This document shows positions 20,001 to 50,684 of a stretch of DNA of 64,000 bases, one piece after another. Numbering within the stretch: the first letter of the stretch is position 1; each line of letters opens with the position of its first letter. The DNA is taken from assembly GCF_000374305.1 (NCBI RefSeq), contig NZ_KB894100.1, forward strand, positions 1-64,000, written 5' to 3'. The notes below the pieces were generated by a model. It was not told the DNA's origin. It saw only the letters and a program-made list of their open reading frames with translations, and did no database searches. The translations under genes and the position numbers were made by a program. Source of the stretch: Actinomadura flavalba DSM 45200. Its GTDB lineage: Bacteria; Actinomycetota; Actinomycetes; Streptosporangiales; Streptosporangiaceae.

Positions 20001-20018
20001 GGGAATGATTTTCATTTC
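20001..20018. promoter_or_regulatory. Zur box upstream of mrf-rpsR-zincophore operon
   Basis: GGGAATGATTTTCATTTC; read in reverse it contains TGAAAATCATT, the core of the Streptomyces-type Zur site. It lies 16 bp before the mrf ATG, so bound Zur would block the promoter or initiation of the whole seven-gene operon. Confidence 0.8.
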
Positions 20019-20033
20019 TACATGGAGGTGGGG

Positions 20034-21176
20034 ATGTCCGTCCCCGTGGTTCTGGTCGCCGGGTTCCATGGACCGGCGCGCGGCGTCGTGGTCGACCGGC
20101 TGCTGCGCGAACATCCCGGCGCGCTGGCCGTGCACCACGACCTGCGCGCGGTGGCGGGCGGCGCGGTCGTGCGGGTGGTGCGCGACGCCGAGGCGGTCCG
20201 CGACCGCGCGGTGGTCCGGCTGGAGCACGGCTGCGTGACGTGCACCGTCCGCTACGACCTGCTGCCGCAGCTCCTGCGGCACGCGCCCAGGGCCGAACTG
20301 CTGATCGTCGAGCTGTGGGACACCGTCGAGCCGCAGTCGGTGGCCGAGGTGCTGGCGCACGAGTCCGGCGGGGAACTGCGGCTCGCGGGCGTGTTCACCG
20401 CCCTGGACGCCGAACTGACGCCGCTCGACCTGTGCCGGGGCGAACCGCTCGCCGATATCGGCAAGCCGGGCGCCGCCGGGGACGAGCGGTACCTCGCCGA
20501 GGTGCTGGCCCGTCAGATCGAGTACGCCACCGCGCTGGTGGTGCCCGATCTGCTGCCCGCCCCGCTGCCGCCGGTCGATCCCGACGACGTGGAGCTGTGC
20601 CGGGAGCTGATGGGCCACCTGGCGCCGATGACGCCCGTGCATCTGCCCGGCGACCCCCTTCCCGTCCTGGCCGGTGCGGCGATCTGCCCGCACGACCTGG
20701 CGGCGCGGGTCGATCCGGCCACCGCCCAGTTGCCGCCCGAGGCCAGCACCCCGGCGGCCGACACCGTGGTGTGGCGGCGGACGGCGCCGCTGCACCCGGC
20801 GCGCTTCTTCGACGTCGTGGACGCGCTGGCGTCCGAGTCGGTGCGCAGCCGGGGCCGTTTCTGGCTCGGCAACCGGCCCGACCGGATGCTGGTGTGGGAC
20901 GCGGCGGCCGGGGTCGTGACCGTCGAGGACGCCGGTCCGTGGCTGGTGTCCCTGCCGTCGGCGGCCTGGGAGATGATCTCCCCGCTGCGCCGGGCCGCCG
21001 CCGCGCTGGACTGGCACGCCGAGCACGGCGACCGCGTCCAGCACCTGGTCTTCACCGGCTCCGAACTCGACCGCGCCCGCATCCACGCGCTGCTGGACGG
21101 CTGCCTGCTCGACGACGGCGAGGCCATCGCCGACGACCCGTTCGCGCCGCTCCTGGACGCCAAGGAGGCCGCGTGA
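20034..21176 (+). CDS. mrf: MRF-like COG0523 protein (ribosome hibernation factor recruitment)
   Basis: 380 aa. COG0523/CobW-type protein of the Zur-regulated branch that includes mycobacterial Mrf, which brings hibernation factor to zinc-starved C- ribosomes. Seen: [20 protein letters not shown] at the N-terminus without the canonical GxxxxGKT P-loop; GCVTCTVR as the metal-site motif (CxxC instead of the usual CxCC); C-terminal [20 protein letters not shown], matching my memory of Rv0106. ATG at 20034 is chosen because GGAGGTGGGG precedes it; an ATG 12 bp upstream lacks a site. Followed with overlap by rpsR. Whether it still binds GTP is unclear from sequence. Confidence 0.85.
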
Positions 21177-21430
21177 CCTCGCCGCGTCCGCGCCCGGACC
21201 GCCGTCGCAGGCCGAACCCGCTCCAGGGCGTCACCTATGTCGACTACAAGGACACCGACCTGCTGCGCCGCTTCCTCTCCGACCGCGGCAAGATCCGCAG
21301 CCGCCGCGTCACCGGCGTCACCGTCCAGCAGCAGAAGCTGCTCGCCCGCGCGATCAAGAACGCCCGCGAGATGGCCCTGCTGCCGTACACCTCCCGCGCG
21401 GCCGAGCAGCCGAGGAGGCGCGCGCAGTGA
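21173..21430 (+). CDS. rpsR: 30S ribosomal protein S18, zinc-free form
   Basis: 85 aa, GTG start overlapping the mrf stop. Core [20 protein letters not shown] and the [20 protein letters not shown] segment identify S18. There is no cysteine, so it is the C- paralog that replaces zinc-binding S18. It also overlaps the next gene (GTGA), which ties the ribosomal genes to zincophore biosynthesis in one mRNA. Confidence 0.96.
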
Positions 21431-22761
21431 CGGACCTGGAAGCTCGACGGCACGCCGTCGTCATCGGCGCCGGAATGGCCGGGCTGACCGCCGCCGTCGC
21501 GCTCGCGGGTCACTTCGACCGCGTGACCGTGCTGGAACGGGACGCGCTCCCGGACGAACCGGTCTTCCGGCCCGGCGTCCCGCAGAGCAGGCACCTGCAC
21601 TCCCTCATGGGCGCCGGTCAGCGCGCGCTGGACGAGCTGGTCCCCGGCTTCACCGGGCGGCTGTACGACGCGGGCGCGATCCCGCTGCGCACGCCCTACG
21701 ACCACCTGTGGTTCAGCCCCGCCGGATGGTGCCACCGCTTCCCGCCCTCGCACACCGTGCCGTCGGCGTCGCGCGAGCTGATCGAGGCCGTCGTGCGGCG
21801 CGCGGCGGTCGAGCGGCACGGCGTCGCGGTCCGGCACCGGACCGAGGTCACCGGGCTGGACGGCGAGCCCGGCGGCGCCGTCACCGGCGTCCACGCGGCA
21901 CCGCGCGACGGCGGCGCCCCCGAGCGGCTGCCCGCCGACCTGGTGGTGGACGCGTCCGGCCGCCGGTCGCGCGTCCCGGCGTGGCTCACCGAGCGCGGCC
22001 ACGGCACGGCCGAGACCACGGTGGTGGACTCCCGCGCGGGCTACAGCAGCCGCCTCTACGAGATCCCCGGCGGGTCCGCCGACGAGTGGCGGGTGATCTC
22101 GATCCAGCCGGGTCCGGGGCAGCCGACGCGCGGCGGCGCGCTCGTCCCGGTGGAGGGCGGCCGCCGGCTCGTCTCGCTGTACGGCTACCTGGACGACCAC
22201 CCGCCGACCGACGAGGACGGCTTCCTCGCCTTCGCGGCGAGCCTGCGGCATCCCGTGCTGCACGACGTCCTGCGGTCGGCCGAGCCCGCCGGGCCGATCC
22301 ACGGCTTCCGGAACATGGCCAACCGCCGCTGGCACGGCGAGGACCTGCCCGCGTGGCCGGACGGGCTGCTCGTGGCGGGCGACGCGCTGTGCGCCGTCAA
22401 CCCCGTGTACGCGCAGGGCATGTCGATGGCCGCGATGACCGCCGTCCTGCTGGACCGCCTCCTGGCCGAGGGCGGCGCGGACGGCCGCACGCTCCAGAAG
22501 CGGCTGGCGGCCGGGAACGAGCGCGCCTGGCAGGTCGCCACCGGCGCCGACCTGGCCCACCTCGGCACCGGGGCGGCGGACGAGGCGGCGGCGGAGACGG
22601 CCGCGTACATGCAGCGGCTCCTAGAACTGGCCCTGGTCGATGCCGACGTCAACCGGACGTTCTTCGACGTGATGATGATGCTGGACGAGCCCGGCGCGCT
22701 GTTCGCGCCCGAGCTGACCGCGCGGGTCGCGCGCGGCCCGGCCCGCCCGGCCGCCGGATGA
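21427..22761 (+). CDS. FAD-dependent monooxygenase-like oxidoreductase
   Basis: 444 aa. Flavin-binding N-terminus [18 protein letters not shown] (GxGxxG), [17 protein letters not shown] in the middle and the GD motif [20 protein letters not shown]. This is the two-motif pattern of the PHBH/geranylgeranyl-reductase/halogenase superfamily. No tryptophan-halogenase WxWxIP motif seen. Third gene of the Zur-controlled operon with a GTG overlapping rpsR. Likely hydroxylates or oxidises the zincophore or its precursor; substrate unknown. Confidence 0.85.
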
Positions 22762-23858
22762 CCGCCGCGCACCGCGCGGGCCTGGCCGCACTCGGCGACG
22801 CGCCACTCGACGCGGTCCCCGCCGCCGTCCACACCCTGGACCTGGCAGTCCTCAACGGCATCGCCGCCCACCTCGCTGACGCGCTCGCGAGCCCGGGCAC
22901 CGCCGCCGAGTTCGCTGCCGAGCTGGGTGCGGTGCCGCGTCACCGGTGGATCGTGGGGCGCTGGCTCGCCGCGATGGAGGGCGAGGGTCTGACGGCCCGC
23001 CGTCCGGACGGGCGGTATGAGCGGCCCGTCCGTCGGCGGCGCGGCGAGCTGATCGCGCTGCGCCGCGACCTGGACGCCGCTCGCGCGCGCCTCGGCTACC
23101 CCGACGCGCTGACCCGCTACCTCCTCGGCTCGCTGCGCGAGCTGCCCGGCCTGCTCACCGACCGGGTGAGCGCGCAGGCGCTGCTGTTCCCCGGCGGCGA
23201 CTTCGCCACGGCGGACGCCGCCTACCGGGACAATCTCGTCAACCGGTACCTGAACGCGGCGGCGGTGGAGGTCGTCTGCGCGCTGCCGCGCAAGCGCCGC
23301 GTGCTGGAGCTGGGGGCGGGCACCGGGTCGCTGACCGCCGCGCTGCTGCCCGTCCTGCACGGGCACACCGACGCGTACCTGTTCACCGACCTGTCGCCGT
23401 TCTTCCTCGACGCGGCGCGGCGCCGCTTCACCGCGCACCCGTTCCTGCGCACCGCCGTCGCGGACCTCGACGCGCCGCTCGCCGCGTCCTGCGGCGCCGA
23501 GCCGTTCGACCTCGTCGTCGCCGTGAACGCCGCGCACAACGCCCGGGACACCGGCGCGCTGCTCGCCGGGGTCCGCGCGGCGCTGCGTCCCGGCGGGACG
23601 CTGCTGCTCGTCGAGACCTGCCACGAGCACCACCAGTCGCTCGCCTCGATGCCGTTCCTGCTGTCGGCGCCGCCCGGCGGGCAGCGGACGGTCCGCACCG
23701 ACGTGCGCGCCGGTACCGGCCGCACCTACCTGACCCGCGCCGAGTGGACGGCCGCGCTCGGCCGCGCCGGATTCGCCGTCGCCCACGACCTCCCCGACCC
23801 CGGCCACCCCCTCGCCGCCTTCTCGCAGCGCCTGCTGGCCGCCGTCCGGACGACCTAG
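22758..23858 (+). CDS. SAM-dependent methyltransferase, zincophore type
   Basis: 366 aa. The N-terminal 160 residues are helical and winged-helix-like. The class I methyltransferase domain follows with [17 protein letters not shown] near residue 180, AVADLDAP, and VVAVNAAHNARDTGALL, LRPGGTLLLVE. It closely parallels the C-terminal half of the tandem methyltransferase made from the opposite operon, including [16 protein letters not shown] and [22 protein letters not shown]. Similar domains act as C-methyltransferases in yersiniabactin and pyochelin synthetases, so it probably methylates a thiazoline or malonyl-derived carbon in trans. Overlaps the preceding stop (ATGA). Confidence 0.85.
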   Translation: MTAAHRAGLAALGDAPLDAVPAAVHTLDLAVLNGIAAHLADALASPGTAAEFAAELGAVPRHRWIVGRWLAAMEGEGLTARRPDGRYERPVRRRRGELIALRRDLDAARARLGYPDALTRYLLGSLRELPGLLTDRVSAQALLFPGGDFATADAAYRDNLVNRYLNAAAVEVVCALPRKRRVLELGAGTGSLTAALLPVLHGHTDAYLFTDLSPFFLDAARRRFTAHPFLRTAVADLDAPLAASCGAEPFDLVVAVNAAHNARDTGALLAGVRAALRPGGTLLLVETCHEHHQSLASMPFLLSAPPGGQRTVRTDVRAGTGRTYLTRAEWTAALGRAGFAVAHDLPDPGHPLAAFSQRLLAAVRTT

Positions 23859-23866
23859 GAGAACCG

Positions 23867-25885
23867 TTGACCGTGCCCCCCACCCTGGAGAGCGACCTGG
23901 CCGCGATCTGGGCCGAACTGCTCGACCTCGACCCCGCGTCGATCGCCCCCGACGCGACGTTCCTGCGGCTCGGCGGCGACTCGGTGCTCGCCGTGCGCAT
24001 GTCCGCGCTGGTCCGCCGCCGCCTCGCCGTCGAACTGGCGCTCGCCGACGTCACCGTGGAGATCAGCCTCGCCGCCCTCACCGACCTGGTCCGCGACCGC
24101 GCCTCCGGTGACGGCGCGGGCGCCCGCGCCCTGCCGGTGGAGATCGTCCGCCGCCCCGACCCGTCCGCGCCGTTCCCGCTGATGCCGCTCCAGCAGGGCT
24201 ACTTCGTCGGCCAGCACGACGGCTGGGAGCTGTCCTACGCCTCCGCCCACTTCTACGGCGACCTGGCGCTGTCGCGGATGGACGCCGACGAGGCCGCCGA
24301 GACGCTGGCCGACGCGCTGCACCGCCTCGCCCTGCACCAGCCGACGCTGCGCGCCCGCATCACGCCCGAGGGCGAGCAGTACGTCCTGCCGCCGGACGCG
24401 CCGGGCGCGATCCCCGGGCCGCGCGTCCTCGACCTGCGCGACGCCGCCGACGCCGAGATCGCGGCGGCGCTGGCGGCGACCCGCGCCGAGATGAGCACGT
24501 CCGGCCCGAACCCGCTCACCGGGCCGGGCGTGGACGTCCGCCTGACGCTGCTGCCCGGCGGCCGGGGCCGCCTGCACACCGCGATGAGCCTCATCGCCAT
24601 GGACGGCTGGTCCGCGACGGTGCTCAACCGGGAGCTGCTGACCCTCGCCACCGACTGGAACGCCGTCCCGGCCCCGCTGGAGGTCGACTTCGGTGACTAC
24701 GTGGCCGCGATCGAGCGGCTGCGGCACACCGGCGCGTGGCAGGCCGACCGCGACTGGTGGCACGACCGGCTGGACGCGTTCCCGCCGCCGCCCGCGCTGC
24801 CGCTGCTCGCCGACCCCCGCGACGTGGCGCCCGACCTGATGGACACCCGCGACGCGCGGCTGGCCGCCGACCGCTGGACGGCCCTGAAACGCCGCTGCGC
24901 CGAGCACGACGTCACCCCGTCGGCGGCGATGCTCACCGCGTTCGCCGTCGTCCTCGCGCGCTGGGCCGGGCACCGCGCGATGCTGCTCAACACCCTCCAG
25001 CTCAACCGGCTGCCGCTGCACCCCGACATCCACCGCACGATCGGCGCGTTCGCCGCGACGATGCTGGTGCCGGTGGACCTGGACGGCGCCGCCGCCTTCT
25101 CCGACCTCGTCCGCGCCCAGCAGCGGACGTTCACCGAGCACGCCGCGCACAACCTCGTCACCGGCGTGGAGGTCTCCCGCGAGCTGGCGCGGCGGCGCGG
25201 CACGGTCCGCCCGGTCGCGCCGATCGTCTTCCAGAGCACGCTCGGCATGGACGCCGCGATCGGGCAGCGGCAGGCCACCGCCGCCGGTCCGCTGGGCGAA
25301 CTGGACTTCGGTGACTTCTACCACCAGCTCCGCACGCCGCAGGTCGCGCTGGAGGCGCGGTTCTGGGAGATGAACGACGAGATGGCCGTCGCGTTCTCGC
25401 TGGTGGGGGAGCTGTTCGACCCGAGCGAGGTCGACTACGCCTTCGCGGAGCTGGTCGAGCTGATCGGCGCGCTGGCCGACGGCTACGGGTGGGACCGCGT
25501 CCTGCCGTTGCCGGACGCCGCGCGCCCCGGCCCGGCGGACGGCCACGGACGGGACCGCGCGCTCGCGCTGCCGGACGCCGCGTATCCCGGCCCGGCCGAG
25601 GGCCTGCGCGTCGGTGACGAGCCGCGCGCCGAGGCCGCCGTGGCGCCCGGCCCGCCGCGCGACGAGCTGGAGCAGCGCATCGCGGCGCTGTGGGAGGACC
25701 TGCTCGACGCGCCCGTCCTGGACCGCGCCGAGACGTTCTTCGCCCTCGGCGGCGACTCGCTGCTGGCCGTGCGCGCCGTGGCGCGGCTGGCGAAGGAGAC
25801 CGGCCGGGCGGTCGGGGTCCGCCGCTTCCTGGACGTCCCGACCGTGGCGGGCCTGGCCGACGCCGTCCGGGAAGGGACGGCGTGA
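23867..25885 (+). CDS. NRPS fragment PCP-Cy-PCP without adenylation domain
   Basis: 672 aa, TTG start after TAGGAGAA. Carrier 1 has LRLGGDSVLAVRM near residue 38. The heterocyclization domain spans about 100-545: PFPLMPLQQGYFVGQ, VFQSTLG and RTPQVALEARF match Cy motifs. Carrier 2 has ALGGDSLLAVRA near 629. The Cy core motif is SLIAMDGWS, not DxxxxDxxS, so its first Asp is lost. With no A domain, the carriers must be charged in trans, presumably with Cys by the A domain of the NRPS at 45615-50627, as happens in HMWP2 of yersiniabactin. A Pro/Gly/Asp-rich linker precedes carrier 2. Fifth gene of the plus Zur operon. Confidence 0.9.
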   Translation: MTVPPTLESDLAAIWAELLDLDPASIAPDATFLRLGGDSVLAVRMSALVRRRLAVELALADVTVEISLAALTDLVRDRASGDGAGARALPVEIVRRPDPSAPFPLMPLQQGYFVGQHDGWELSYASAHFYGDLALSRMDADEAAETLADALHRLALHQPTLRARITPEGEQYVLPPDAPGAIPGPRVLDLRDAADAEIAAALAATRAEMSTSGPNPLTGPGVDVRLTLLPGGRGRLHTAMSLIAMDGWSATVLNRELLTLATDWNAVPAPLEVDFGDYVAAIERLRHTGAWQADRDWWHDRLDAFPPPPALPLLADPRDVAPDLMDTRDARLAADRWTALKRRCAEHDVTPSAAMLTAFAVVLARWAGHRAMLLNTLQLNRLPLHPDIHRTIGAFAATMLVPVDLDGAAAFSDLVRAQQRTFTEHAAHNLVTGVEVSRELARRRGTVRPVAPIVFQSTLGMDAAIGQRQATAAGPLGELDFGDFYHQLRTPQVALEARFWEMNDEMAVAFSLVGELFDPSEVDYAFAELVELIGALADGYGWDRVLPLPDAARPGPADGHGRDRALALPDAAYPGPAEGLRVGDEPRAEAAVAPGPPRDELEQRIAALWEDLLDAPVLDRAETFFALGGDSLLAVRAVARLAKETGRAVGVRRFLDVPTVAGLADAVREGTA

Positions 25886-26946
25886 CGCGGTTCGGGGTGC
25901 TGGGCGGCTCGGGCACCGTCGGCCGCGTCGTCGTGGACCGGCTGGCCGGGGCGGGGCCGCTGCGGGTGGGCGGACGCGACGCGGGCCGTGCGGCGGAGGT
26001 CTGCGCGTCGCACCCCGGCGCGGAACCGGTCCGCGCGGACCTGGCCGACGCGGCGGGCCTGGCCGCGTTCTGCGCGGGCTGCGACGTCGTGGTCAACTGC
26101 GCCGGGCCGTCCTACCGGGTGCTCGACCGGGTGGCGCGCGCCGCCCTGGCGGCCGGGGCGCACTACGTGGACGCGGCGGGCGACGTCGTCGCGCTCGACG
26201 CTCTCGCGGACGGCCCGCCCGCGCGCCTGGCCGACCGGGCGGCCGTGTTCTCCGCCGGGCTCATGCCGGGGCTGTCCGGCCTGCTGCCCCGGGTGCTCGC
26301 CGCCGCCGGTCCGCTCGCCCGGCTCGACGTCTACGTCGGGGGAGCGGCGGCGATCGGCCCGCTGTCGGCCGTGGACGCGCTGCTGACGCGCGGCCCCCGC
26401 TTCGGCACCGCGCTCGCCGCCTGGCGCGGCGGCGCGGTCGTGCCGAACGCGCTGCGCCCGCTGCGGTCGGTCGCGCTGCCCGGGTTCCGGGGCCGCGTGC
26501 ACGCGTGGCCGTTCCTGTCGGCGGAGGCGGCCGGGCTCGCCGCCGCCCTCGGCGTGGACGAACTGCGCAACCACACCGTCTACGTCACCGAGGAGATCCC
26601 GCGCGCCCTCGCGGCGGCGTGGGCCGACGAGGAAGGGCCGGTGGACGCGCACGTCCCCGCCGTGGTGGCCGCCGCCGACGCGGACCTGGCCGCCACCGGG
26701 CCGTACTACACGCTGCTGTTCCAGGCCGTCCCGCGCGAGCACGTCCCCGGGCGGCCGCGGCGGCTCGTCCTGCGCACCCCCGACTCCTATGCGCTCAGCG
26801 GCGTCGTCGCGGCGCTCACCGCCCGAGCCCTCGCGGACGGCGCGATCCCGCCCGGCGCGCACCTGGCGGCCGACGTCCTCGACCCCGCCGCCACCCTGGC
26901 CGCGCTGCGCGGCGACCCGCTGGTGACCGGCGTCGAACTGACCTGA
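25882..26946 (+). CDS. Saccharopine dehydrogenase-like NAD(P)-dependent reductase
   Basis: 354 aa. Rossmann N-terminus RFGVLGGSGTVGRVVVDRLA, then VNCAGPSYRVLDRVARAALA and HYVDAAGD, as in the saccharopine dehydrogenase NADP domain. Opine dehydrogenases of staphylopine-type metallophores have a similar role but are not obviously homologous. In this cluster it could reduce a thiazoline to a thiazolidine, the job of PchG/Irp3 in pyochelin and yersiniabactin, which is missing otherwise. GTG overlaps the preceding stop; 17 bp before the next gene. Confidence 0.8.
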   Translation: MTRFGVLGGSGTVGRVVVDRLAGAGPLRVGGRDAGRAAEVCASHPGAEPVRADLADAAGLAAFCAGCDVVVNCAGPSYRVLDRVARAALAAGAHYVDAAGDVVALDALADGPPARLADRAAVFSAGLMPGLSGLLPRVLAAAGPLARLDVYVGGAAAIGPLSAVDALLTRGPRFGTALAAWRGGAVVPNALRPLRSVALPGFRGRVHAWPFLSAEAAGLAAALGVDELRNHTVYVTEEIPRALAAAWADEEGPVDAHVPAVVAAADADLAATGPYYTLLFQAVPREHVPGRPRRLVLRTPDSYALSGVVAALTARALADGAIPPGAHLAADVLDPAATLAALRGDPLVTGVELT

Positions 26947-26963
26947 CCGAGAAGGGCACGACC

Positions 26964-28419: not shown

Positions 28420-28434
28420 GATAATCATTCCTAT
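28418..28434. promoter_or_regulatory. Zur box between thioesterase and oxidoreductase
   Basis: ATGATAATCATTCCTAT, with the palindromic core ATGATnATCAT-like half sites shared with the other Zur boxes here. It sits 13 bp before the oxidoreductase ATG and overlaps the thioesterase start codon itself. One operator could therefore serve both divergent genes; a leftward transcript would be leaderless or nearly so. Confidence 0.75.
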
Positions 28435-28446
28435 GAGGAGGTCGAC

Positions 28447-29373: not shown

Positions 29374-29378
29374 ACGCC

Positions 29379-29414: not shown

Positions 29415-29432
29415 GGTCCCGTCCGCGCGACG

Positions 29433-35000: not shown

Positions 35001-35067
35001 CCGGCCGCCCGCGGAAGGAGCCGCCGAGCCGTCTGGCCGGGACGGCGAGCGCGGGCCGTCTCAGCAC
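32026..35067 (-). CDS. ABC transporter: DppC-type permease fused to two ATPase domains
   Basis: 1,013 aa with GTG overlapping the upstream permease stop. Permease part about 1-290: [40 protein letters not shown] and several membrane segments of the DppC/NikC type. Then an Arg/Ala/Pro-rich repetitive linker to about 470. ATPase 1: [37 protein letters not shown]. ATPase 2: [38 protein letters not shown] second Arg-rich insert splits ATPase 2. In this family permease and ATPases are normally separate proteins. Together with the permease and binding protein upstream it makes a complete peptide/nickel-class importer, as in staphylopine CntABCDF; it probably takes up the zinc-zincophore complex. 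Confidence 0.85.
33650..34260. repeat. Expanded direct repeats in the transporter linker
   Basis: Several imperfect copies of a roughly 90-110 bp segment containing GCGAGCAGCGCGGCGCGGCG and the CGGTCGCCGGGTGCGGCCCC type (for example near 33670, 33790, 33880, 34060). In the coding frame they read as variants of [20 protein letters not shown] and [15 protein letters not shown]. The frame stays open through all copies. Confidence 0.75.
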
Positions 35068-37507: not shown

Positions 37508-37551
37508 GATCGGTTTTCTCTCGGTGCCGGAAGGGATGGGGGTGCCGCGGG

Positions 37552-43500: not shown

Positions 43501-45618
43501 GACGCCCCAGGACTCCAGCAGCCGCGCCGTGCCGAGCGACACCGCGAACAGCGCGGGCAGCCCGTGCACCGGCCCGTGCGCCCGCTCGGGACCGGCGGTG
43601 CCCTGAACGACGTCGCGCAGGTCGAGGCCGAGCAGGTCGTCGAACAGCTTCGCGCACTCGTCCACGACGGCCGCGAACACCGGCTCGGCCGCGTAGAGTC
43701 CCGCGCCCATGCCGGGCCGGGCACTGCCGCCGCCGGGGAACGCGAACACCACGCGCGGCGGGCCGGTCACCGGGCCGGTGACGGACCCCGTCCGCAGCGC
43801 CTCCGCGAGATCGGCGCCCTCAGCGGCCACGACCGCCATCCGATACGGCAACTCCGCGCGCCCTATCTGCGAGGTATACGCCAAATCAGCCAACGCCCCC
43901 GCCGCCGACGGCGGCCCGGTGAAGGGGACGGCGCACTGCGCCTCCGCGAGGCCGCCGCCCTCGATCGCGGCGATCGACGTCGGGTGGACCGGTTCGGCAC
44001 GGCCCGCCCGCGTGCTGCGCGCCGGCTCGGCCGCCACCGATGGCGGCCCGGTGACGCCGGCGGTGCGCTGCGTCTCCGCGAGCCCGCCCCCGGCGGCGAT
44101 CGAGGTCGGGTGGGGTAGTTCCGTCCGGCCCGCCTGCGTCGTGTGCGCCAGGTCGGGTTGCGCGCCGGGCGGCGCGGTGGCGGCGGTCGGCGTCTGGTGG
44201 GGCGCGGTGTCGTGCCAGGCTGCCAGGTCGGCGGCGGCGCGTCGTAGGGCGGCGGCGCTGTGCGCGGACAGCACGACCGGGTGCGGACGCCGGTCCGGTG
44301 GCGACGGCGCTCGCTCCGGCGCGGGCCCGACGACGACGTGCGCGTTGGTGCCGCCGATGCCGAACGAGCTGACGCCCGCCAACGGCGGCCCGTCGAACGG
44401 CCGCGTCTCCGCCACGACCTCGAACGGCGACCCGTCCAGCCCCAGCAGGTCGTTCACCGGGCGGGCGTGCAGGGACGCGGGCAGCGTCGCGTGCCGCACC
44501 GCCAGCACCGTCTTGATGAACGACGCGATCCCGGCGGCGGAGTTGGCGTGGCCGATGTTGCTCTTCACCGACCCCAGCCCGCACCACGCCGGGCCGGTGC
44601 CGCCGAAGACGCGGCGCAGCGCGGCCACCTCGATCGGGTCTCCGATGCGCGTGGCCGTGCCGTGCGCCTCCACGTAGCCGACCTGCCGGGGCTCGACGCC
44701 CGCGACCGCGTGCGCCTCGGCGATCACCCGCGCCTGCCCCGGGAGGGACGGCGCGGTGAAGCCCGCCTTGGCGGCACCGTCGTTGTTGATCGCGGAGCCG
44801 TGGACGACGGCCAGCACGGGGTCGCCGTCGTCCAGCGCGTCGCCCAGGCGGCGCAGCACGACCGCGCCGACGCCCTGCGAGTACACGATGCCGGTGCCGC
44901 GCGCGGAGAACGGCCGGACCGTGCCGTCGGCGGAGTAGATGCCGTCCGGCGTGGACAGGTAGCCGTGCCCCTGCGGGACGATCAGCGAGACGCCGCCCGC
45001 GAGCGCGGTGTCGCACTCGCCCGACAGCAGCGACTGCGCGGCCATGTGCACCGCGACCAGCGACGTCGAGCACGTCGTGTTGACGGCGACGGCCGGGCCG
45101 GTGAGGTCGAGCCGGTACGCGGTCTGCAACGGCAGGTAGTCGGTCTGCGTGGCGATCGCCGTCTGGAGGCTGCCCGCCGGGTCGGCGCCGCCGCCGGTGG
45201 TGTCCCAGCGTCCGGCCAGGTTCGCGGCCAGGTACGCGCTCTGCGACGCGCCCGCGAACACCCCGACCGCCCCGGCGCCGCGCCCGCCGCCGTGCCCCGC
45301 CTGCTCCAGCGCCCGCCAGGCGCACTCCAGGAACAGCCGGTGCTGCGGGTCGAGCAGCGCCGCTTCGGCGTCGGTCAGGCCGAACGGGACGGGGTCGAAC
45401 AGGTCCTGCCCGTCGATCAGCCCGGCGACCGGCACGTACGCGGGGTCGCGGCGCAGGCCCGGCGCGACGCCGCGCGCGGCCAGGTCGTCGTCGGTGAGCC
45501 GGGTGAGGCCGCTGCGGGCCTCGGTCAGCAGGTCCCAGAAGGCTTCGGCGTCCGGCGCGCCGGGGAAACGGCACGCCAGGCCGACGACGGCCACCGCGTT
45601 CTCGTCGGCTCCGCTCAT
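37552..45618 (-). CDS. Hybrid PKS-NRPS: KS-AT-KR-ACP-Cy-TE
   Basis: 2,688 aa. KS: Cys in VNTTCSTSLVAV near 181, VEAHGTATRIGDP near 319, KSNIGH near 354. AT: GHSLGEYTAAVV near 714; its substrate motif AAHS is neither clear malonyl nor methylmalonyl. KR: LVTGGLGDVG near 1357 and MSSAG/GPYCAAN. ACP: LGGHSLLATRM near 1637. Cy: canonical DVLICDAGS near 1922. TE: GGWSMGGSLG near 2486. It parallels HMWP1 of yersiniabactin but lacks the embedded methyltransferases and the final carrier before TE. Long low-complexity linkers lie at about 1169-1343 (His-rich), 1676-1789 (Thr/Pro) and 2293-2411 (His/Asp), and the Cy domain carries a triplicated insert. Start overlaps the upstream NRPS stop (ATGA). Confidence 0.93.
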   Translation of the reverse strand: MSGADENAVAVVGLACRFPGAPDAEAFWDLLTEARSGLTRLTDDDLAARGVAPGLRRDPAYVPVAGLIDGQDLFDPVPFGLTDAEAALLDPQHRLFLECAWRALEQAGHGGGRGAGAVGVFAGASQSAYLAANLAGRWDTTGGGADPAGSLQTAIATQTDYLPLQTAYRLDLTGPAVAVNTTCSTSLVAVHMAAQSLLSGECDTALAGGVSLIVPQGHGYLSTPDGIYSADGTVRPFSARGTGIVYSQGVGAVVLRRLGDALDDGDPVLAVVHGSAINNDGAAKAGFTAPSLPGQARVIAEAHAVAGVEPRQVGYVEAHGTATRIGDPIEVAALRRVFGGTGPAWCGLGSVKSNIGHANSAAGIASFIKTVLAVRHATLPASLHARPVNDLLGLDGSPFEVVAETRPFDGPPLAGVSSFGIGGTNAHVVVGPAPERAPSPPDRRPHPVVLSAHSAAALRRAAADLAAWHDTAPHQTPTAATAPPGAQPDLAHTTQAGRTELPHPTSIAAGGGLAETQRTAGVTGPPSVAAEPARSTRAGRAEPVHPTSIAAIEGGGLAEAQCAVPFTGPPSAAGALADLAYTSQIGRAELPYRMAVVAAEGADLAEALRTGSVTGPVTGPPRVVFAFPGGGSARPGMGAGLYAAEPVFAAVVDECAKLFDDLLGLDLRDVVQGTAGPERAHGPVHGLPALFAVSLGTARLLESWGVAPSTVLGHSLGEYTAAVVAGVLPLTDAVRLIAARSTAMRDAAGDGAMLAVALPEDDVRALLDRHPDVDLAAVNAPASCVVSGPRAAVAALDAAARAAGAETTRLRFDGAAHSRLIDGALPAMRAAARGLATGAAPRVPMISTVTGAPIGAEAGTGEHWVRQLRDPVLFSPAVRAAVGDAPAVLVQVGPGAALATLARAHGLPALAGTVPALAVDDGDDLTAVRAAAGRLWAHGVPVEFGALHAPGRRRIAAPGYAFQRRRFWIDPPGPAADTGGPVPDAAEPLQVPVWRQVPPLDAPGRFTGRWLVTGAGAEPVAAALRAAGARAETAVEPGEWTGVVVLMGEDADVTEDVLAHARLAAALTVPPDVLLQVTRSAQRVESGDRPDPARAAALALPRVLAQEHPGLRWRTLDLDGPADPATVLTELSDLHRAGSGQDVALRGGVRRLRGLRAWQPAREAPGDGAAMRDAATAEHDAATEHSTTAGRSAAAGGGTAAEHGAGTEHSTPAGDGPAAGHSAATGHGAAVGDGAAAEHGSAAGHNTTAGHGAAAPDPDALRALRVADERHPGAEHGAATGHSMVSGHSAAAREGTATGHSTPAGHNTTAGEGTAAGHSTPAGHSAAAGDGTAAEHGSAAGHGAAAGGGGAGEIALVTGGLGDVGLTVVAHLARRGLRVVVTSRGGVPRAGARAEALRRLGAEGLDVEVRRVDAADAGATGALVRELDAAGRIAVVVHAAGVVASADLQPLRRVTAEHVAGHVASKIGGALALRDALAALPPGREPATVVLMSSAGTLLGGIGMGPYCAANRYLDALAEASTGTTRWVSAVWDAWKVGPLGGERQVRLTFALDAATGMDALDRVLAANGPGTPPVVAVSTTDLRERAAASAFTEPTAPGAADDALDGDQRAVARLWSDLLGVPVTSPDADFFALGGHSLLATRMLTRLRAAFGVELRLRDLLAAPTLAGLAALLTHGTPAPPDAPAPTNDTTLTGGGTPTNSATPANGTAPADVPAPTDSATPTGRADQADVPAPTEGTAPTSDTTPTDGTTPTGVPAPTGGTTPADGTALTGVPAPTDGATPAGGAAGDSFPMTRVQHAYWVGRGGGYALGDVACHFYLEYDCPDLDLYRYERAWRTVIDRHPMLRTVTTADGRLRTLADVPPYRVRVHDLTEMPGDARERRLARLRDRISRDPGPSDRWPLVQIQAARLPGGRTRLFLGVDVLICDAGSYWIIDREVRRLYEDPGAELPEIGIDFAACVRAMEPDRGGDAWRSAAAYWRDRLDTLPGPPALPVTGAAVRADAGAPATEPHERDRLDTLPGPPALPVTGAAVRADAGPAVTEPHERDRLDTLPGPPALPGTGAAVRAGAVTEPHEPPVFVRRTARLTAPEWDALRAETARRGATPTAVLLTAYAEALAGWSESPHFTLTLTLFDRPPVHPDVDAVVGDFTSLLLHEADRRTPGTFADHVRATHTRLFDDLDHRAYSALDLLAERATRTGRVDGVPVVFTSALGLEDLVGGDPDLQWIGEQTHALSQTPQVWLDHQVLVQRGELLVQWDAVDGVLPAAEVDRVFAGYAERLRTLATTPTTWDAQPPGDDALAPQHNNTDDHTPPPNDDALIPTDDHTPHLSSPPSDDDTLALRHDSTDNGTPHHAHPPNDALIPPHNNTDDHTPHLPSPPGDDDTLALRHDSTNNHKPHPPHPPSDDDVLVPLRDGTGDRTLYLLHPSGGDVMCYADLASALDASVSVVAVTDPGLLGAAAPEGLPELAARYAAALTRRSPGPYALGGWSMGGSLGQEVARRLVADGHRVDLLVMLDANDPTYITPVDGDGETTVRLLAAYEAFGGVDLGVGTEAGRAALRALDRDAREAEVARRLRARRLLGRRDDVRERVAVFARHLRGLAAHTPARIDDPRVRTLLVRADRPASRNSGIGMGVDDTPPGLPDLGWSRHLAGPLDVHGVDADHYGLLRPPALARLAALIDRAPGLA
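38385..38740. repeat. Repeats encoding His/Asp-rich linker before TE
   Basis: Alternating imperfect units code for HNNTDDHTP, LALRHDSTDN and PPSDDDTL type strings, about 2293-2411 in the protein. Units of roughly 140 bp recur (for example the DDDTLALRHDST coding segment twice). Confidence 0.7.
39391..39678. repeat. Three tandem units (90, 99 and 99 bp) inside the Cy coding region
   Basis: Units begin CTCGTGCGGCTCGGTC at 39391, 39481 and 39580. In frame they read DRLDTLPGPPALPVTGAAVR followed by ADAG and TEPHER-like ends. All lengths are multiples of three. The insert lies between the Cy active-site motif and the PEWDALRAETARRG helix, so it is probably a surface loop. Confidence 0.85.
40250..40590. 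repeat. Repeats encoding Thr/Pro-rich linker between ACP and Cy
   Basis: Imperfect units of roughly 30-60 bp encode strings such as VPAPTDSATPTG, TTPTDGTTPTG and TALTGVPAPTDG. A flexible linker that has grown by repeat expansion. Confidence 0.75.
41590..42110. repeat. Repeats encoding His-rich linker before KR
   Basis: About 15-bp and longer units such as GTGCCCGGCTGGCGTGCTGT recur many times and encode AGHSTPAGHNTTAGEG, AAEHGSAAGHGAA and similar. About one residue in five or six is His over roughly 170 residues. It sits between AT and KR. Confidence 0.8.
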
Positions 45619-48600
45619 CGGGCGACCTCCTCGGCACGCCGGCGCGCACGACGCCGCGCGTCGGCACGGCGGGCGGAGCCGTCCTCGACGGGTTCGGGTT
45701 CGGGCGCGGCGTCGACGGGCGGCGCGGCGCCGTGGACGAGCCCGGTCAGGAACTCCGCCAGTTGCCGCACGGTGGGCCGCGTGAACAACTCGACGACCGA
45801 AAGCTCGACCCCGAGCGCCGCGACAATCCGCGCGTGAGCCCGCACCAGAGTCAACGAGGTCGCACCGAGCCGCAGAAAAGGCGTGCTGACATCGACAGGC
45901 GCACCCCCGAGCAACTCACTCAACGTACGCACGACCAACCTTTCGATCGCCACATCAACCCCACCCCCGCCCACCCCGGCCCCGACTCCGACTCCGGCCC
46001 CGACTCCGGCCCCGACTCCGGCCCCGACTCCGGCCCCGACTCCGGCCAGTCCACCCCCCAGCGCGCCACCCTCACCCGAATCCATCCCGACCGACCCGAC
46101 ACCGCCCACCACACCCGCCGCGAACATCGAGCCCGCCCCGGCCGCGCTCGTCGCCCCTGTACCGGCGGCGTCCACTGCACCCGGCTCGGACATCGAGCCC
46201 GCCCCGGCCGCGCTCGTCGCCCCTGTACCGGCGGCGTCCACTGCACCCGGCTCGGACATCGAGCCCGCCCCGGCCGTGCCCATCGAGCCCGGCCCGGCGA
46301 CGTGCACCGCGCCCGGCGCGGAAGTCGAGCCCGCCCCGCCCGCGTCCGTCGAGCCGGGCCTGGCGGCGTCCGTCGCGCCCGGCCCGGCGGCGTGCACCGC
46401 GCCCGGCCTGGCGGTGCCCACCGCGCCCGGCCTGGCGGTGTCCACTGCGCCCGGCCCGGTGGTGTTCATCGCGCCCGGCGCGGATATCGGGCCCAGCCCG
46501 GTCAGGTGCTTCGCGTCCGGCCCGGTGGTGTTCACCGCGCCCGGCGCGGACGTGGGGCCCGCTCCGGCCGTGTCCATCGCGCCCGGGCCAGCGGGATGCG
46601 CCGCGCGCGGTCCGGGCATCGCGCGCGATCCGCTCGTGTTCATCGCGTCCGAGCCGGTGGTGTTCACCGTGCCTGGTGTCGGCGCGGGCATCGCGCCTGA
46701 CCCGGGCGTGCTCATCGCGTCCGGCCCGGGTATCGCGTCCGAGCCGGGGACGTTCGTCGCGCTCGGGCCGAACGTGTCCGGCGCGGGCGTAGCCGCCGAT
46801 AGCGGGCGTGGGTGGGGGGTCACGCCTGGGCTCGGGTCGGGGAGCACGGTGAATTCCACGAGCGCGTCGGCCGGGAGCAGTGGCTGAACGGCGAGGCCCT
46901 GCCGTTCCGCGAACCTCGTGAGTCGGGACGCCCACGTCCCGGCCGCGTCCAGCGCCTCGACCGCCGCCAGCGCGCCGCCCGACAGCCGCAGCGAGACGTC
47001 CAGTCCCTCGGCCGCCGCCGCGCGCAACAGGTCGGTCAGATCCTCGTCCGCCACCGCGTGCGACGGGTCGGTCAGGTCTCCGGCCGCCGTCGCGGGGAGC
47101 GCGGCGTTCAGGTCCGTGGCCGCCGTTGCGGGCAGCGGGTCGGCCAGATCCTCGGCCGAGGTCGCGGGCAGCATGTCGGATACGCCGTTGGCCGCCGCCG
47201 CGCGCAGCGGGTCGGTCAGGTTCCTGGTCCCCACCGGGTGCGACGGGTCGGTCAGGTTCCCGGTCGCCGTCGCGGGGAGCGCGGCGTTCAGGTCCGTGGC
47301 CGCCGTTGCGGGAGGCGGGCCGGTCAGGTTCCCGGCCGAGGTCGCGGGGAGCGGGTCGGTCAGGTCCTTGGTCGCCGCCGCGCGTGACGGGCCGGTCGAG
47401 TCCGTGGCCGCCGTCGCGCGCCGTGGCTCGGTCAGAGTCGCGGGCGCTGTCGGGGCGGGCTGCGCGGTCGTCGGGTCGTTCGCGCGTCGGAACGGGTTGC
47501 CGAGTGCCCTGTAGTCGATCTTGCCGTTGTCGGTCACCGGGAACTCCGGCAGCCACACCAGGCGGGTCGGCACCATGTAGTCCGGCAGGCGCTCGCGCAG
47601 GTGCCCGATCAGCTCGTCGTCCGACGGCGGCCGACCGGCGTCGGACGCGACCAGGTGCGCCACCAGGCGCGGTCGGTCGTCCGGCCCCCGCACCGACGAC
47701 GCCACCGACTGCCGCACGCGCGGCGCCCGGTTCAGCGCCGACTCGACCTCCCCCAGCTCGATCCGGTGCCCACGGATCTTCACCTGGCGGTCCAGCCGCC
47801 CCAGGAACTCGATGGTGCCGTCCGTCCGCCACCGGCCCAGGTCGCCGGTCCGGTAGACGCGGCGGCCCAGCAGCGGGTCGTGCACGAACCGCTCCCGCGT
47901 CTGCGTCTCGTCACCGATGTAGCCGCGCGCCAGCCCGGCCCCGCCGATGTGCAGCTCACCGGGCACGCCCGCCGGGACGGGCCGCCCGGCCGCGTCGAGG
48001 ATGTGGAACGACTGCCCGCGCAGCGCCCGCCCGTACGGGATGCTCGCCCAGTCCGGCGACACGTCACCGATGGGGTGGCAGATCGACCAGATCGACGCCT
48101 CGGTCGCGCCGCCCAGGCTGACGAGCGTCGCCTCGGGCGCCAGCGCGCGGACCCGGTCGGGCAGCGTCACCGGAATCCAGTCCGCCGACAGGAACACCAC
48201 CCGCAGCGGCGCCAGCACCGCGCGCGCCCGCTCGGGCTCGATCTCGGCGTACTCGACGAGCATCTCCATCAGCGCGGGCGCGGTGTTCCAGACGGTGACA
48301 CGGTGCCGTTCCATCAGGTCGAGCCAGTGCCCGGGGTCGCGCTGCCGGTCCGCGTCCGGCAGGACGAGCGCGGCGCCCGTGGCCATGACGCCGAAGACGT
48401 CGTGCACGGACAGGTCGAAGCTGAACGCGGACAGGCCGAGCACCCGGTCGTCCAGGCCGACCGGGAAGCGGTCGACGAGGTCGTCGATCGTGGTCCGGAC
48501 GGCGCGGTGCTCGATGGCCACGCCCTTCGGGCGGCCGGTCGAGCCGGACGTGAAGATGACGTAGGCGAGGTCGTCCGGCGCCGCGCTCTGCGGCTCGCGC

Positions 48601-50627
48601 TCGTCGTCCGCGCCGTCGAGCGCGCCGGACGGGTCCACGGCGTGGACGGTCACGCCGTCCGGCCAGGCAACGGCCGAGCCCGCCGGGACGAGCGCCCGCG
48701 CGACGCCCGCCTGCTCGCACACCGACGCGATCCGCTCGGCGGGCCAGGACGGCTCGACCGGCACGTATCCGGCGCCGCTCGCGGCCACGCCCACCAGCGC
48801 GGTGACCTGCTCGACGCCCTTCTCGAACGCCACCGCCACCAGGTCGCCCGGGCCGGTGCCGAGCCCGGACAGCAGCCGCCCGATGCGGCGGGCGCGCTCG
48901 TCGAGTTCGGCGTGGGTCAGGGCGGTGGCGGCGTCCAGGAGGGCCGGGGCGTCGGGGTGCTCGCGGGCGGCGGCGCGCAGCGGCGCGTCCATCAGCGGGC
49001 CGACGTCGCCGAACGGGCGGGCGGTGAGGGGCTCGTCCGGCAGGAAGGCGGGGTCGGCCCCGAACGCCGGATCGGTCCAGGCGTCCGGGTCGGCGGCGAG
49101 GCGGCGCAGCAGCCGCAGGTGCGCGTCGCGCAGCGCGTCCACGTAGTCGCCGGGCAGGGCGCCGTCGGCGGTGTCCCAGGCGACGCGCAGCCGCCCGCCC
49201 TCGTCGTGCACGATGTGGTCCAGCGCGACCTGCGGTGTCTGCGAGACGCCGAACACCTCCTCTCCGAGCCAGGCGGCGGGCGCCGACCCCGGCTCGGAGA
49301 GCCCGAGGCCGCTGGTGAACACGACCGGATGCGTCGGGACGAGCCCGCCGTCGCCGTGCTCGCGCAGCACCTCGACGCCGGACACGGTGCGGTGGTCCAT
49401 GTCGGTCCAGAACCGCCGGTTCACCCGCGCCGCGTAGGCGGCGAAACCGGCCGCCGGATCGGCGTCGGGGATCTCCACGAGGATCGTGGACGTGAAGTCA
49501 CCGACCAGGTGGGCCAGGTCCGGGTCGTCCGGACGGTCGAACAGCGTCGTGTTGAGCGCGAACGGCGCGTCCGCGCCCCACCGCGCCAGGACCAGGGCGA
49601 ACGCCGCCAGCAGCACGCCGGTGGCGCTCAGCCCGTGCTCGGCGGCCCGTTCCCGCAGCGCGCGCCAGCTCTCGGCGTCCAGCTCGGACGAGCGGCGCGT
49701 GAACCGGTGGGAGCGCAGTCCGGCCAGGTCGGCGGCCCACGGGAGCGCGGGTCCGGCGGGCAGGTCCGGGCCGATCCGGTCCCAGTAGGCGCGGTCGCGC
49801 TCGCGGCGCTTCGCCTCCTCGGGGTCGGCGGCGCGGCGCTCCACCACCTCGGCGAACGTCAGCGGCGCGGCCGGGAGCGCGGTGCCGGGATCGGCGACGA
49901 GCGCGCCCCACTCCGCGAGGACCTGCATCCATCCGGCGAGGTCCAGCGCGAGCACGTCGATGCCGAGGAAGAGCCGGGTGCGCCCGTCGGGCAGGAACGC
50001 GGCGCGGATGTCGAACAGCGGCCATCGCGACGCGTCGCGGACCTGGTGCGAGCAGACGCGGCGCATCTCGTCCAGCCGCGCGGCGGCCGCATCGTCGCCC
50101 GCTTCGCGCAGGTCCGTCACGTCGATGACGTAGGGCTCCACCGACGGCAGGACGTGCTGCCTCCCGTCGCCGTCGACGACCATCCGCAGCATGGCGTGAT
50201 GCGCCACGAGCCGGTTCCACGCGTCGGCCAGACGGGCGAGGTCGCCGGACGGCTCGCCCTCCGGCACCCGGTCGTACTCCCGGTAGTAGAACGTCGCGAC
50301 GCCACCGAGCGGGAACGCCGCGTCGCGCCCGATCCAGTAGGCGGTCTGGAGCGGCGTCAACGCGAACCCGTCGTCACCCCCGGCCCCGGCCCCGGACACC
50401 CCGGCCTCGACGACGCTGCGCACGGTCGCCGCACCGAGGAACTCCGAGATCGGCAGGTCGACCCCGAGCTCCAGCAACCGCCGCCGCAACCGCACGGCGG
50501 TGAACGACTCCAGCCCGAGCACGGTGAGCGTCGCGTCGGCGTCGGGCACGGACGGCAGCCCCAGCACCTCGGCCACCACCTTGCCCACGTCATCGACCGT
50601 CAGGGGCGTGGACGGCACGTCACGCAT
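45615..50627 (-). CDS. NRPS: ArCP-Cy-A(Cys)-long linker-PCP
   Basis: 1,670 aa. The N-terminal carrier has VLGLESFTAVRL near 40, an aryl-carrier-like form. Cy about 85-520 with DVLALDLAGW (DxxxxDxx then Gly for Ser), HPVVFTSGLGL and SQTPQVALDH. A about 540-1050: VIFTSGSTGRPKG, FDLSVHDVF and DNGKIDYRAL; my reading of the code is D-L-H-N-F-S-L-I-W-K, close to the cysteine code DLYNLSLIWK. Then a 500-residue Ala/Gly/Pro/Thr-rich linker and a carrier with LGATSLTLVR near 1589. This is the only A domain in the zincophore operons, so it probably charges all cysteine carriers. No enzyme to load the aryl carrier is encoded nearby. ATG behind GAGGAG, with a Zur box 36 bp upstream. Confidence 0.93.
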   Translation of the reverse strand: MRDVPSTPLTVDDVGKVVAEVLGLPSVPDADATLTVLGLESFTAVRLRRRLLELGVDLPISEFLGAATVRSVVEAGVSGAGAGGDDGFALTPLQTAYWIGRDAAFPLGGVATFYYREYDRVPEGEPSGDLARLADAWNRLVAHHAMLRMVVDGDGRQHVLPSVEPYVIDVTDLREAGDDAAAARLDEMRRVCSHQVRDASRWPLFDIRAAFLPDGRTRLFLGIDVLALDLAGWMQVLAEWGALVADPGTALPAAPLTFAEVVERRAADPEEAKRRERDRAYWDRIGPDLPAGPALPWAADLAGLRSHRFTRRSSELDAESWRALRERAAEHGLSATGVLLAAFALVLARWGADAPFALNTTLFDRPDDPDLAHLVGDFTSTILVEIPDADPAAGFAAYAARVNRRFWTDMDHRTVSGVEVLREHGDGGLVPTHPVVFTSGLGLSEPGSAPAAWLGEEVFGVSQTPQVALDHIVHDEGGRLRVAWDTADGALPGDYVDALRDAHLRLLRRLAADPDAWTDPAFGADPAFLPDEPLTARPFGDVGPLMDAPLRAAAREHPDAPALLDAATALTHAELDERARRIGRLLSGLGTGPGDLVAVAFEKGVEQVTALVGVAASGAGYVPVEPSWPAERIASVCEQAGVARALVPAGSAVAWPDGVTVHAVDPSGALDGADDEREPQSAAPDDLAYVIFTSGSTGRPKGVAIEHRAVRTTIDDLVDRFPVGLDDRVLGLSAFSFDLSVHDVFGVMATGAALVLPDADRQRDPGHWLDLMERHRVTVWNTAPALMEMLVEYAEIEPERARAVLAPLRVVFLSADWIPVTLPDRVRALAPEATLVSLGGATEASIWSICHPIGDVSPDWASIPYGRALRGQSFHILDAAGRPVPAGVPGELHIGGAGLARGYIGDETQTRERFVHDPLLGRRVYRTGDLGRWRTDGTIEFLGRLDRQVKIRGHRIELGEVESALNRAPRVRQSVASSVRGPDDRPRLVAHLVASDAGRPPSDDELIGHLRERLPDYMVPTRLVWLPEFPVTDNGKIDYRALGNPFRRANDPTTAQPAPTAPATLTEPRRATAATDSTGPSRAAATKDLTDPLPATSAGNLTGPPPATAATDLNAALPATATGNLTDPSHPVGTRNLTDPLRAAAANGVSDMLPATSAEDLADPLPATAATDLNAALPATAAGDLTDPSHAVADEDLTDLLRAAAAEGLDVSLRLSGGALAAVEALDAAGTWASRLTRFAERQGLAVQPLLPADALVEFTVLPDPSPGVTPHPRPLSAATPAPDTFGPSATNVPGSDAIPGPDAMSTPGSGAMPAPTPGTVNTTGSDAMNTSGSRAMPGPRAAHPAGPGAMDTAGAGPTSAPGAVNTTGPDAKHLTGLGPISAPGAMNTTGPGAVDTARPGAVGTARPGAVHAAGPGATDAARPGSTDAGGAGSTSAPGAVHVAGPGSMGTAGAGSMSEPGAVDAAGTGATSAAGAGSMSEPGAVDAAGTGATSAAGAGSMFAAGVVGGVGSVGMDSGEGGALGGGLAGVGAGVGAGVGAGVGAGVGVGAGVGGGGVDVAIERLVVRTLSELLGGAPVDVSTPFLRLGATSLTLVRAHARIVAALGVELSVVELFTRPTVRQLAEFLTGLVHGAAPPVDAAPEPEPVEDGSARRADARRRARRRAEEVAR
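45975..46045. repeat. 12-bp tandem repeat in NRPS linker
   Basis: CCGACTCCGGCC units repeat about five times and encode a Gly-Val-Gly-Ala string in the NRPS linker. Confidence 0.8.
46126..46257. repeat. Perfect 66-bp direct repeat, two copies, in NRPS linker
   Basis: Copies start at 46126 and 46192 (ATCGAGCCCGCCCCGGCC) and appear identical. They encode SMSEPGAVDAAGTGATSAAG-type units. Perfect identity suggests very recent slippage. Confidence 0.85.
47080..47420. repeat. Imperfect repeats encoding LTDPLPAT-type linker units
   Basis: Units such as DLTDPLPATSAGNLTGPPPA and ATDLNAALPATA recur. Segments starting at 47080 and 47260 are alike over about 55 bp. Part of the long linker between A and PCP. 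Confidence 0.7.
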
Positions 50628-50662
50628 GAGTCTCCTCGGAGGGAAGGATCAGGAGTCTCGAA

Positions 50663-50684
50663 GATAACGGTAATCATAATCATT
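50663..50684. promoter_or_regulatory. Zur box upstream of the minus zincophore operon
   Basis: GATAACGGTAATCATAATCA then TT; read in reverse it contains AATGATTATGATTACC, with the ATGATnATnAT pattern of the other sites. It is 36 bp upstream of the NRPS start and would control the 21-kb operon down to the tandem methyltransferase. Confidence 0.78.

Follow-up and report, generated by a model that had tools for sequence, protein, structure and literature searches.

A putative Zur-controlled zincophore gene cluster of the hybrid NRPS-PKS type in Actinomadura flavalba, with relatives in several actinobacterial genera

The locus described here, from Actinomadura flavalba DSM 45200, is probably a metallophore gene cluster that is switched on by zinc starvation and whose product would be made, exported, bound to Zn(II) and re-imported. 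In our best reading, based on sequence comparison, the product would be a Zur-controlled, yersiniabactin-related zincophore, possibly bearing a thiol. Zinc-loaded Zur would repress both operons of the cluster, and zinc starvation would lift the repression. The synthetases would then assemble a thiazoline-containing chelator from cysteines and one malonate-type unit, and methyltransferases and a reductase would tailor it. The chelator would leave the cell by an exporter and bind Zn(II), and the zinc complex would be taken back by an ABC importer of the SBP5 type; a dithiol-oxidase-like enzyme may handle thiols left by an open cysteine.

We know of few zincophores made by NRPS-PKS enzymes. The family to which the cluster belongs combines a clear zinc-type control signal, a gene kit that is largely fixed across genera and, as a contrast, an adjacent iron-type cluster. 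The new points suggested by the comparisons are a heterocyclization domain lacking the ring-closing dyad (here called Cy*), the lack of a PCP between Cy and TE, a conserved dithiol-oxidase-like enzyme and the improbability of a salicylate cap in five of seven genomes from other genera; the conserved non-canonical Cy domain and the dithiol-oxidase-like enzyme pose direct enzymology questions. According to a 2026 survey, which detects clusters by chelator genes, telling zincophores and siderophores apart will likely require regulatory elements (PMC12971057). No such chelator genes were recognised among the cluster genes scanned here.

Organization of the locus

The window, i.e. the whole stretch of 64,000 nucleotides analysed, comprises positions 1–64000 of contig C8 in a genome of 6.17 Mb. 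Gene models combine evidence from reading frames, family scans and codon-position G+C. Long overlapping entries of the open reading frame list (e.g. those starting at 21237 and 25614) were discarded as high-G+C artefacts, and shorter models were used instead. The features are as follows (coordinates, strand, description, basis).

16880..16894, +, Zur-like box before the rpmG2-rpmB2-rpsN2-rpmF2 operon, sequence TGATAACCGTTCCCA (matrix and pattern search)
16919..17798, +, rpmG2, rpmB2, rpsN2 and rpmF2, i.e. bL33, bL28, uS14 and bL32 paralogs (Pfam, cysteine counts)
18031..18417, +, Zur-like regulator, the genome's second Zur-like gene (matches to 3mwm and 2o03)
20000..20014, −, Zur-like box before the cobW operon, sequence TGAAAATCATTCCCA (matrix, pattern, shuffles)
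20022..21176, +, CobW-family GTPase, start likely 20034 by reading (PF02492/PF07683; best NCBIfam models below cut-off)
21173..21430, +, rpsR2, bS18 paralog (PF01084)
21427..22761, +, FAD monooxygenase related to the epoxidases MonCI and Lsd18, an accessory gene (302 and 253 bits)
22758..23858, +, MT1, stand-alone methyltransferase like PKS C-methyltransferases (CurJ 90 bits, DisA 63 bits)
23873..25885, +, PCP-Cy*-PCP protein, its Cy-like domain with S/Q/E replacing D/T/D (domain scans, aligned columns)
25882..26946, +, saccharopine-dehydrogenase-like reductase, core in related clusters (PF03435)
26964..27704, +, methyltransferase, last gene of the cobW operon (family scan)
27655..28419, −, type II thioesterase (PF00975, 186 bits)
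28419..28433, +, Zur-like box between the thioesterase (TE) and thioredoxin-reductase-like (TrxR) genes, sequence TGATAATCATTCCTA, weakest of four
28447..29373, +, thioredoxin-reductase-like flavoenzyme of the HlmI/DepH/GliT type with CPFC (PDB similarity, motif reading)
29433..32036, −, tandem methyltransferase, NRPS-type MT plus PKS C-MT type (family scan, PDB similarity)
32026..35064, −, importer permease fused to two ABC ATPases in one reading frame (Pfam)
35061..36002, −, importer permease, 57–68% identical in related clusters (PF00528/PF19300)
35999..37504, −, solute-binding protein SBP_bac_5, peptide/nickel class (Pfam, genus search)
37552..45618, −, PKS-NRPS, KS-AT-KR-CP-Cy-TE (Pfam)
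45615..50627, −, NRPS, CP-Cy-A-PCP, with a cysteine-type A domain (Pfam, BmdB alignment)
50662..50682, −, Zur-like box in two overlapping registers before the NRPS-PKS-importer operon (matrix, shuffles)

Most of these genes fall into two long operons. From cobW and rpsR2 the first continues into the genes for the monooxygenase, a methyltransferase, PCP-Cy*-PCP, the reductase and another methyltransferase (20022–27704). The second runs on the minus strand from 50627 to 29433 and encodes the NRPS, the PKS-NRPS, the binding protein, a permease, the permease-ATPase-ATPase fusion and the tandem methyltransferase. No exporter was recognised among the cluster genes, and an Rfam scan of the whole window at the gathering threshold gave no match.

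Tandem repeats are numerous inside the synthetase and transporter genes (30287–47435). The window's NRPS and PKS (1670 and 2688 aa) are longer than five orthologs (1284–1315 and 2171–2236 aa), the excess being low-complexity linkers. The epoxidase-type flavoenzyme at 21427–22761, which is akin to those of polyether pathways, lies inside a probable metallophore cluster.

Related clusters

Related loci were collected in two ways. A search of 65 genomes of the genus with the solute-binding protein gave five same-genus loci (G002, G018, G026, G045 and G052) with binding proteins 72–79% identical to that of the window, the next best among the matches listed being 40% identical. An NRPS-alignment scan of named genomes with two short peptide patterns, a limited sample of 12 loci, includes Actinocorallia, Nonomuraea, Halostreptopolyspora, Nocardiopsis, Actinorugispora, Pseudonocardia and Saccharomonospora. 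The set of 13 genomes considered below comprises the window, five same-genus genomes and seven from other genera.

Gene order in the same-genus loci is as in the window, with differences: G002 has no monooxygenase, MT1 or thioesterase, and the G018 locus ends at a contig end. Across the set, the NRPS occurs in 13 of 13 genomes (interrupted by a contig end in N. aridisoli) and the PKS in 12, none being seen in N. aridisoli, where contigs end. PCP-Cy*-PCP, the TrxR-like enzyme, the reductase and the tandem methyltransferase are likewise found in 12 of 13, the G018 contig stopping before them. The binding protein and first permease are present in 12 of 13, with neither in the Halostreptopolyspora stretches read. 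The monooxygenase is present in the window, G045, G052 and Nocardiopsis and shortened in G026, and MT1, MT2 and the type II thioesterase vary in their presence across the 13 genomes. From these comparisons, a core kit of NRPS, PKS-NRPS, PCP-Cy*-PCP, tandem methyltransferase, reductase, flavoenzyme and importer is largely fixed in several genera. The G026 matches to the monooxygenase and MT1 are both shortened (L057, 15268–16721).

Zur-like boxes and zinc-type control

The sequence-only reading had placed Zur-like palindromes before both operons and at a divergent gene pair, and had proposed that the four sites be scored with a Zur position matrix. We used a palindromic matrix of 19 sites, all outside the window and hand-picked as the best matches in upstream regions. 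When every 15-mer of the window was scanned, the eight best (12.1 to 21.4 bits) all lay in the four claimed places, against 7.8 bits for the best unrelated 15-mer, so that a matrix made from outside sites puts the window's sites first. The boxes at 16880–16894 and 50662–50682 stand ~25 nt before rpmG2 and ~35 nt before the NRPS gene, respectively.

The 250-bp upstream regions were also compared with 400 dinucleotide shuffles each, using the 11-position Zur consensus of Streptomyces coelicolor (PMC5472717). By this published consensus, the observed score was matched by 0/400 shuffles for cobW, 1/400 for the NRPS, 2/400 for TE/TrxR and 33/400 for rpmG2. A pattern chosen after the window's sites had been seen, TGANAANNNTTNNCA, matches without mismatch at four places in the genome, namely the znuA operon, 16880, 20000 and one other; if one mismatch is allowed, it gives 65 rows genome-wide, compared with 23 for the reversed control pattern. 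The fourth exact match (C2:747441) lies near a gene for a CooC-like ATPase beside CbiQ/CbiO-like genes, all named by eye.

Zur and zinc-free ribosomal genes had been noted as neighbours of the boxes. They are there, and the paralogs of bL33, bL28, uS14, bL32 and bS18 are cysteine-free except for one Cys in bL28; the zur gene, however, is the genome's second Zur-like gene, another belonging to the znuACB operon. Four Fur-family genes are present in the genome, of which at least two are Zur-like. The Zur-like gene that ends the znuACB operon, on contig C2, scores 167.7 bits to 3mwm and the window copy 148.2 bits, the latter matching both S. coelicolor 3mwm and Mycobacterium tuberculosis FurB (2o03) at 148 bits, and the two proteins are 52% identical to each other. 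Upstream of the window's own zur gene the Zur score is 7/11, no better than shuffles (154/400).

In the related clusters, the best Zur consensus score in 15 NRPS upstream regions, the window's included, is 8–11 of 11, and 12 of the 15 are equalled by at most 2/400 shuffles. The NRPS upstream regions of Actinocorallia, Actinorugispora and Saccharomonospora reach only 8/11, a score attained by 83, 67 and 87 of 400 shuffles, respectively. Upstream of the other long operon, boxes are likewise present in G045, G052, G026 and G002 (1, 2, 5 and 42 of 400 shuffles as good). A box filter applied with no shuffle control also placed boxes near operon starts in Actinocorallia, Nocardiopsis, Actinorugispora and Saccharomonospora and none in the Halostreptopolyspora stretch; it further matched three places away from cluster gene starts (L111x 26027, L116 11218 and L118 14969). 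In 5 of 13 genomes, as judged from the stretches read, zinc-sparing rpmG2/rpmB2/rpsN2/rpmF2 and/or cobW adjoin the cluster; these are the window, G052, Actinocorallia and two Nonomuraea, one of the latter with a distance of ~8 kb to the nearest cluster gene.

The box at the divergent TE/TrxR pair fared less well. It stands out in the window by the shuffle count given above but is the weakest of the four, and there is none at that place in G045, G052, G026 or G002; in G002 the TrxR gene follows directly after the methyltransferase gene MT2. We therefore dropped it as a conserved feature. Three background positions equal the score at 28419; they lie in loci of the same genome that were chosen for Zur-like matches and are no fair control. 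In Saccharomonospora, a box lies between the TrxR and reductase genes.

For comparison, the same upstream regions were scored with an IdeR consensus. None of the 15 NRPS upstream regions has a prominent IdeR-like signal (58 to 398 of 400 shuffles as good), and the consensus has no match with up to three mismatches in the whole window. Upstream of mbtH in the siderophore cluster at the window's left end, the less strict best-score test found an IdeR-like box at 15340–15358, sequence TTAGGTAAGCCTTGCCTAT, which scores 15/19 (0/400 shuffles as good; for Zur, 47/400). Zur control of both long operons, as claimed in the sequence-only reading, is thus well supported by the outside-site matrix, the conserved boxes, the zinc-sparing linkage and the lack of an IdeR-like box. 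Yersiniabactin-like metallophores do bind several metals (PMC9396620), and the locus might accordingly make an iron or copper metallophore that merely neighbours Zur genes; the Zur-like boxes with no standout IdeR-like box across the 15 synthetase upstream regions, and the linkage to zinc-sparing genes in three genera, make this very unlikely.

The assembly line

Family scans recovered the KS-AT-KR-ACP, reductase, methyltransferases and two thioesterases that had been read from the open reading frames. The NRPS A domain, previously called as cysteine-type, aligns with the bacillamide synthetase BmdB, and the code read against BmdB, D-L-H-N-F-S-L-I-W-K, is invariant in 6 of 6 sequences; at the usual pocket positions it is close to the code for cysteine. 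The PKS-NRPS has a single carrier and none between Cy and TE (Pfam, window copy and four orthologs), and five orthologs examined by reading likewise have no PCP before TE.

Three Cy domains had been counted. All three are present, but only two have the full catalytic residues, i.e. DxxxxD and the Thr/Asp dyad positions. The third, in PCP-Cy*-PCP, is closest in the PDB to the Cy domain of HMWP2. Among the best 120 of 254 relatives, the window's included, the first Asp of its DxxxxD motif is replaced by Ser (111), Asn (8) or Ala (1); Gln takes the place of the dyad Thr in 117 and Glu that of the dyad Asp in 119, while the two carrier serines are conserved in 118 and 119, respectively. According to a structural study, cyclodehydration suffers severely when the Asp-Thr dyad is mutated, and the DxxxxD aspartates have a structural role (PMC9547227; its residues were matched to the Cy* columns by motif). 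In photoxenobactin biosynthesis, some Cy domains stop at the amide or thioester, and an Ala mutant at the first Asp lowered one product only twofold (PMC9396620). Because of that mutant, Ser at the first Asp says little alone, and the dyad change weighs more. With the third Cy lacking the cyclodehydration dyad, at least one cysteine is therefore probably left open or otherwise handled.

The methyltransferases resemble PKS C-methyltransferases (CurJ, DisA) and the NRPS-internal 5wmm; in the yersiniabactin synthetase such methyltransferases are built in. The reductase is saccharopine-dehydrogenase-like (PF03435); an Irp3/PchG-type reductase was considered and set aside, no such name occurring among three PDB matches.

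Comparison with known systems

Yersiniabactin synthesis, by HMWP2 and HMWP1, ends with a KS-AT-KR-CP-Cy-PCP-TE build. The cluster resembles it and the piscibactin/photoxenobactin systems in its CP-Cy-A-PCP start, its KS-AT-KR-CP-Cy and TE, its one Cys-type A domain and its methyltransferases. Unlike the yersiniabactin system, it is split over three proteins, its methyltransferases and reductase act in trans, Cy and TE have no PCP between them, the third Cy is non-canonical, there are no in-cluster salicylate genes, a Zur-like box is present, and the importer is of a different class. For Escherichia coli Nissle, yersiniabactin serves as a zincophore (PMC8636617).

Coelibactin, of S. coelicolor, has been called the first proposed bacterial zincophore and had not been isolated according to papers of 2012 and 2023. 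The coelibactin type is not known to include a PKS module. Zur control of the coelibactin cluster has been reported (PMC5472717; PMC6103462). Compared by description with coelibactin and with sorangibactin, the window cluster shares Zur control (reported for coelibactin, predicted here), NRPS heterocyclization, a saccharopine-dehydrogenase-like enzyme and trans methyltransferases (SrbE-G, PMC10127202), SrbE, of the saccharopine dehydrogenase kind, being required for sorangibactin (PMC10127202). Sorangibactin requires salicylate loading, and both systems have a P450, whereas no P450, CYP105N1-like or other, was found among the window cluster genes scanned. Relative to both systems, the window cluster has a KS-AT-KR module, PCP-Cy*-PCP, a dithiol-oxidase-like enzyme and an SBP5-type importer.

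The analogy with coelibactin and yersiniabactin drawn earlier is loose, given that no salicylate genes were recognised in the cluster, and given Cy*, the absence of a PCP before TE and the dithiol-oxidase-like enzyme. Among the titles and abstract openings searched, which lie mostly outside subscription journals, no described system of this build was recognised.

The starter unit

Neither an aryl-AMP ligase nor a salicylate synthase was found among the cluster genes scanned. The nearest ligase (12928–14562, 580 bits to TIGR02275) lies ~6 kb from the cobW operon in the left siderophore cluster (5903–15358), which encodes MbtH, an aspartate decarboxylase, the ligase and an NRPS with two condensation domains and within or near which the contig starts; as far as the source describes them, madurastatin clusters are similar (PMC10951976). 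This ligase might load the first carrier in trans, giving a salicylate-capped yersiniabactin analogue, a reading that we consider rather doubtful. The short distance, a domain inventory near that of HMWP2/HMWP1 and the presence of a ligase in all six cluster-bearing genomes of the genus speak for it; 60 of the 65 genus genomes, however, carry such a ligase anyway, and the left cluster has an iron-type box. In the seven other-genus cluster genomes, which are drafts and in two of which not every first-look candidate was scored, the ligase is strong in only two, weak in two (220–225 bits) and absent at E 1e-60 in three. Salicylate synthase is above cut-off in only 4 of 13 genomes, the window's left cluster running off the contig. 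Ligase co-occurrence was consequently rejected as support for a salicylate starter, being uninformative within the genus and mostly missing outside it. Because five of seven other-genus genomes have no strong ligase and salicylate synthase passes its cut-off in 4 of 13, a salicylate cap appears unlikely as a rule for the family. As a guess, priming of the first carrier with cysteine by the single A domain would fit.

The dithiol-oxidase-like flavoenzyme

The best PDB matches of the TrxR-like protein are, in order, 4ntd (165 bits), 3fbs (156), DepH (148), 4fk1 (143) and GliT (107); 4ntd we take to be HlmI. The likeness to the dithiol oxidases HlmI, DepH and GliT is not exclusive, 3fbs (an oxidoreductase) and 4fk1 (a putative thioredoxin reductase) scoring alike. 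All 12 cluster copies carry CxxC (CPFC in 11, CPYC in one), and in the seven other-genus genomes an ortholog (67–79%) lies within ~3 kb of the PCP-Cy*-PCP gene, the next paralogs reaching at most 46%. The enzyme may manage thiols of the product.

Two elaborations follow from this possibility. One is a cysteine-primed, thiol-bearing zincophore, for which two Cy domains would close thiazolines, Cy* would join a cysteine ring-free and the HlmI/DepH-like enzyme would make a disulfide, switching zinc binding by redox state. We regard this full scheme as unlikely; if true, it would define a redox-gated zincophore class common to several actinobacterial genera. The other is a zinc-withholding weapon: a chelator of the dithiol type would poison neighbouring cells, and the HlmI/DepH-like enzyme would protect the producer. 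The conservation of that enzyme would suit such a role, as would reports that gliotoxin disturbs zinc homeostasis and that Pseudomonas aeruginosa responds to zinc starvation by inducing a dithiol oxidase (PMC11317636). It is nevertheless decidedly unlikely, since the solute-binding protein accompanies the cluster in 12 of 13 genomes, and Zur-type control beside zinc-sparing ribosomal genes fits acquisition.

The importer

The zincophore reading, to which we return, draws on the importer as well: a thiazoline-type NRPS-PKS product together with a co-conserved importer would fit a zincophore. All parts of the complete peptide/nickel-class importer that had been described were found by Pfam (SBP_bac_5, two permeases and two ATPases, of the peptide/nickel SBP5 class), the second permease and both ATPases being fused in one frame. 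The binding protein has low similarity to PDB entries, and SBP5 proteins carry many ligands; given the breadth of the SBP_bac_5 family, an importer for peptides or nickel, unrelated to the product, might be considered. That seems highly improbable to us with the binding-protein gene found alongside PKS or NRPS genes in all but one of the 13 genomes and, in the window, in one operon with them behind a Zur box. In the Saccharomonospora draft, the binding-protein match is split over two overlapping frames (L088, 20699–22170), which may be a sequencing error.
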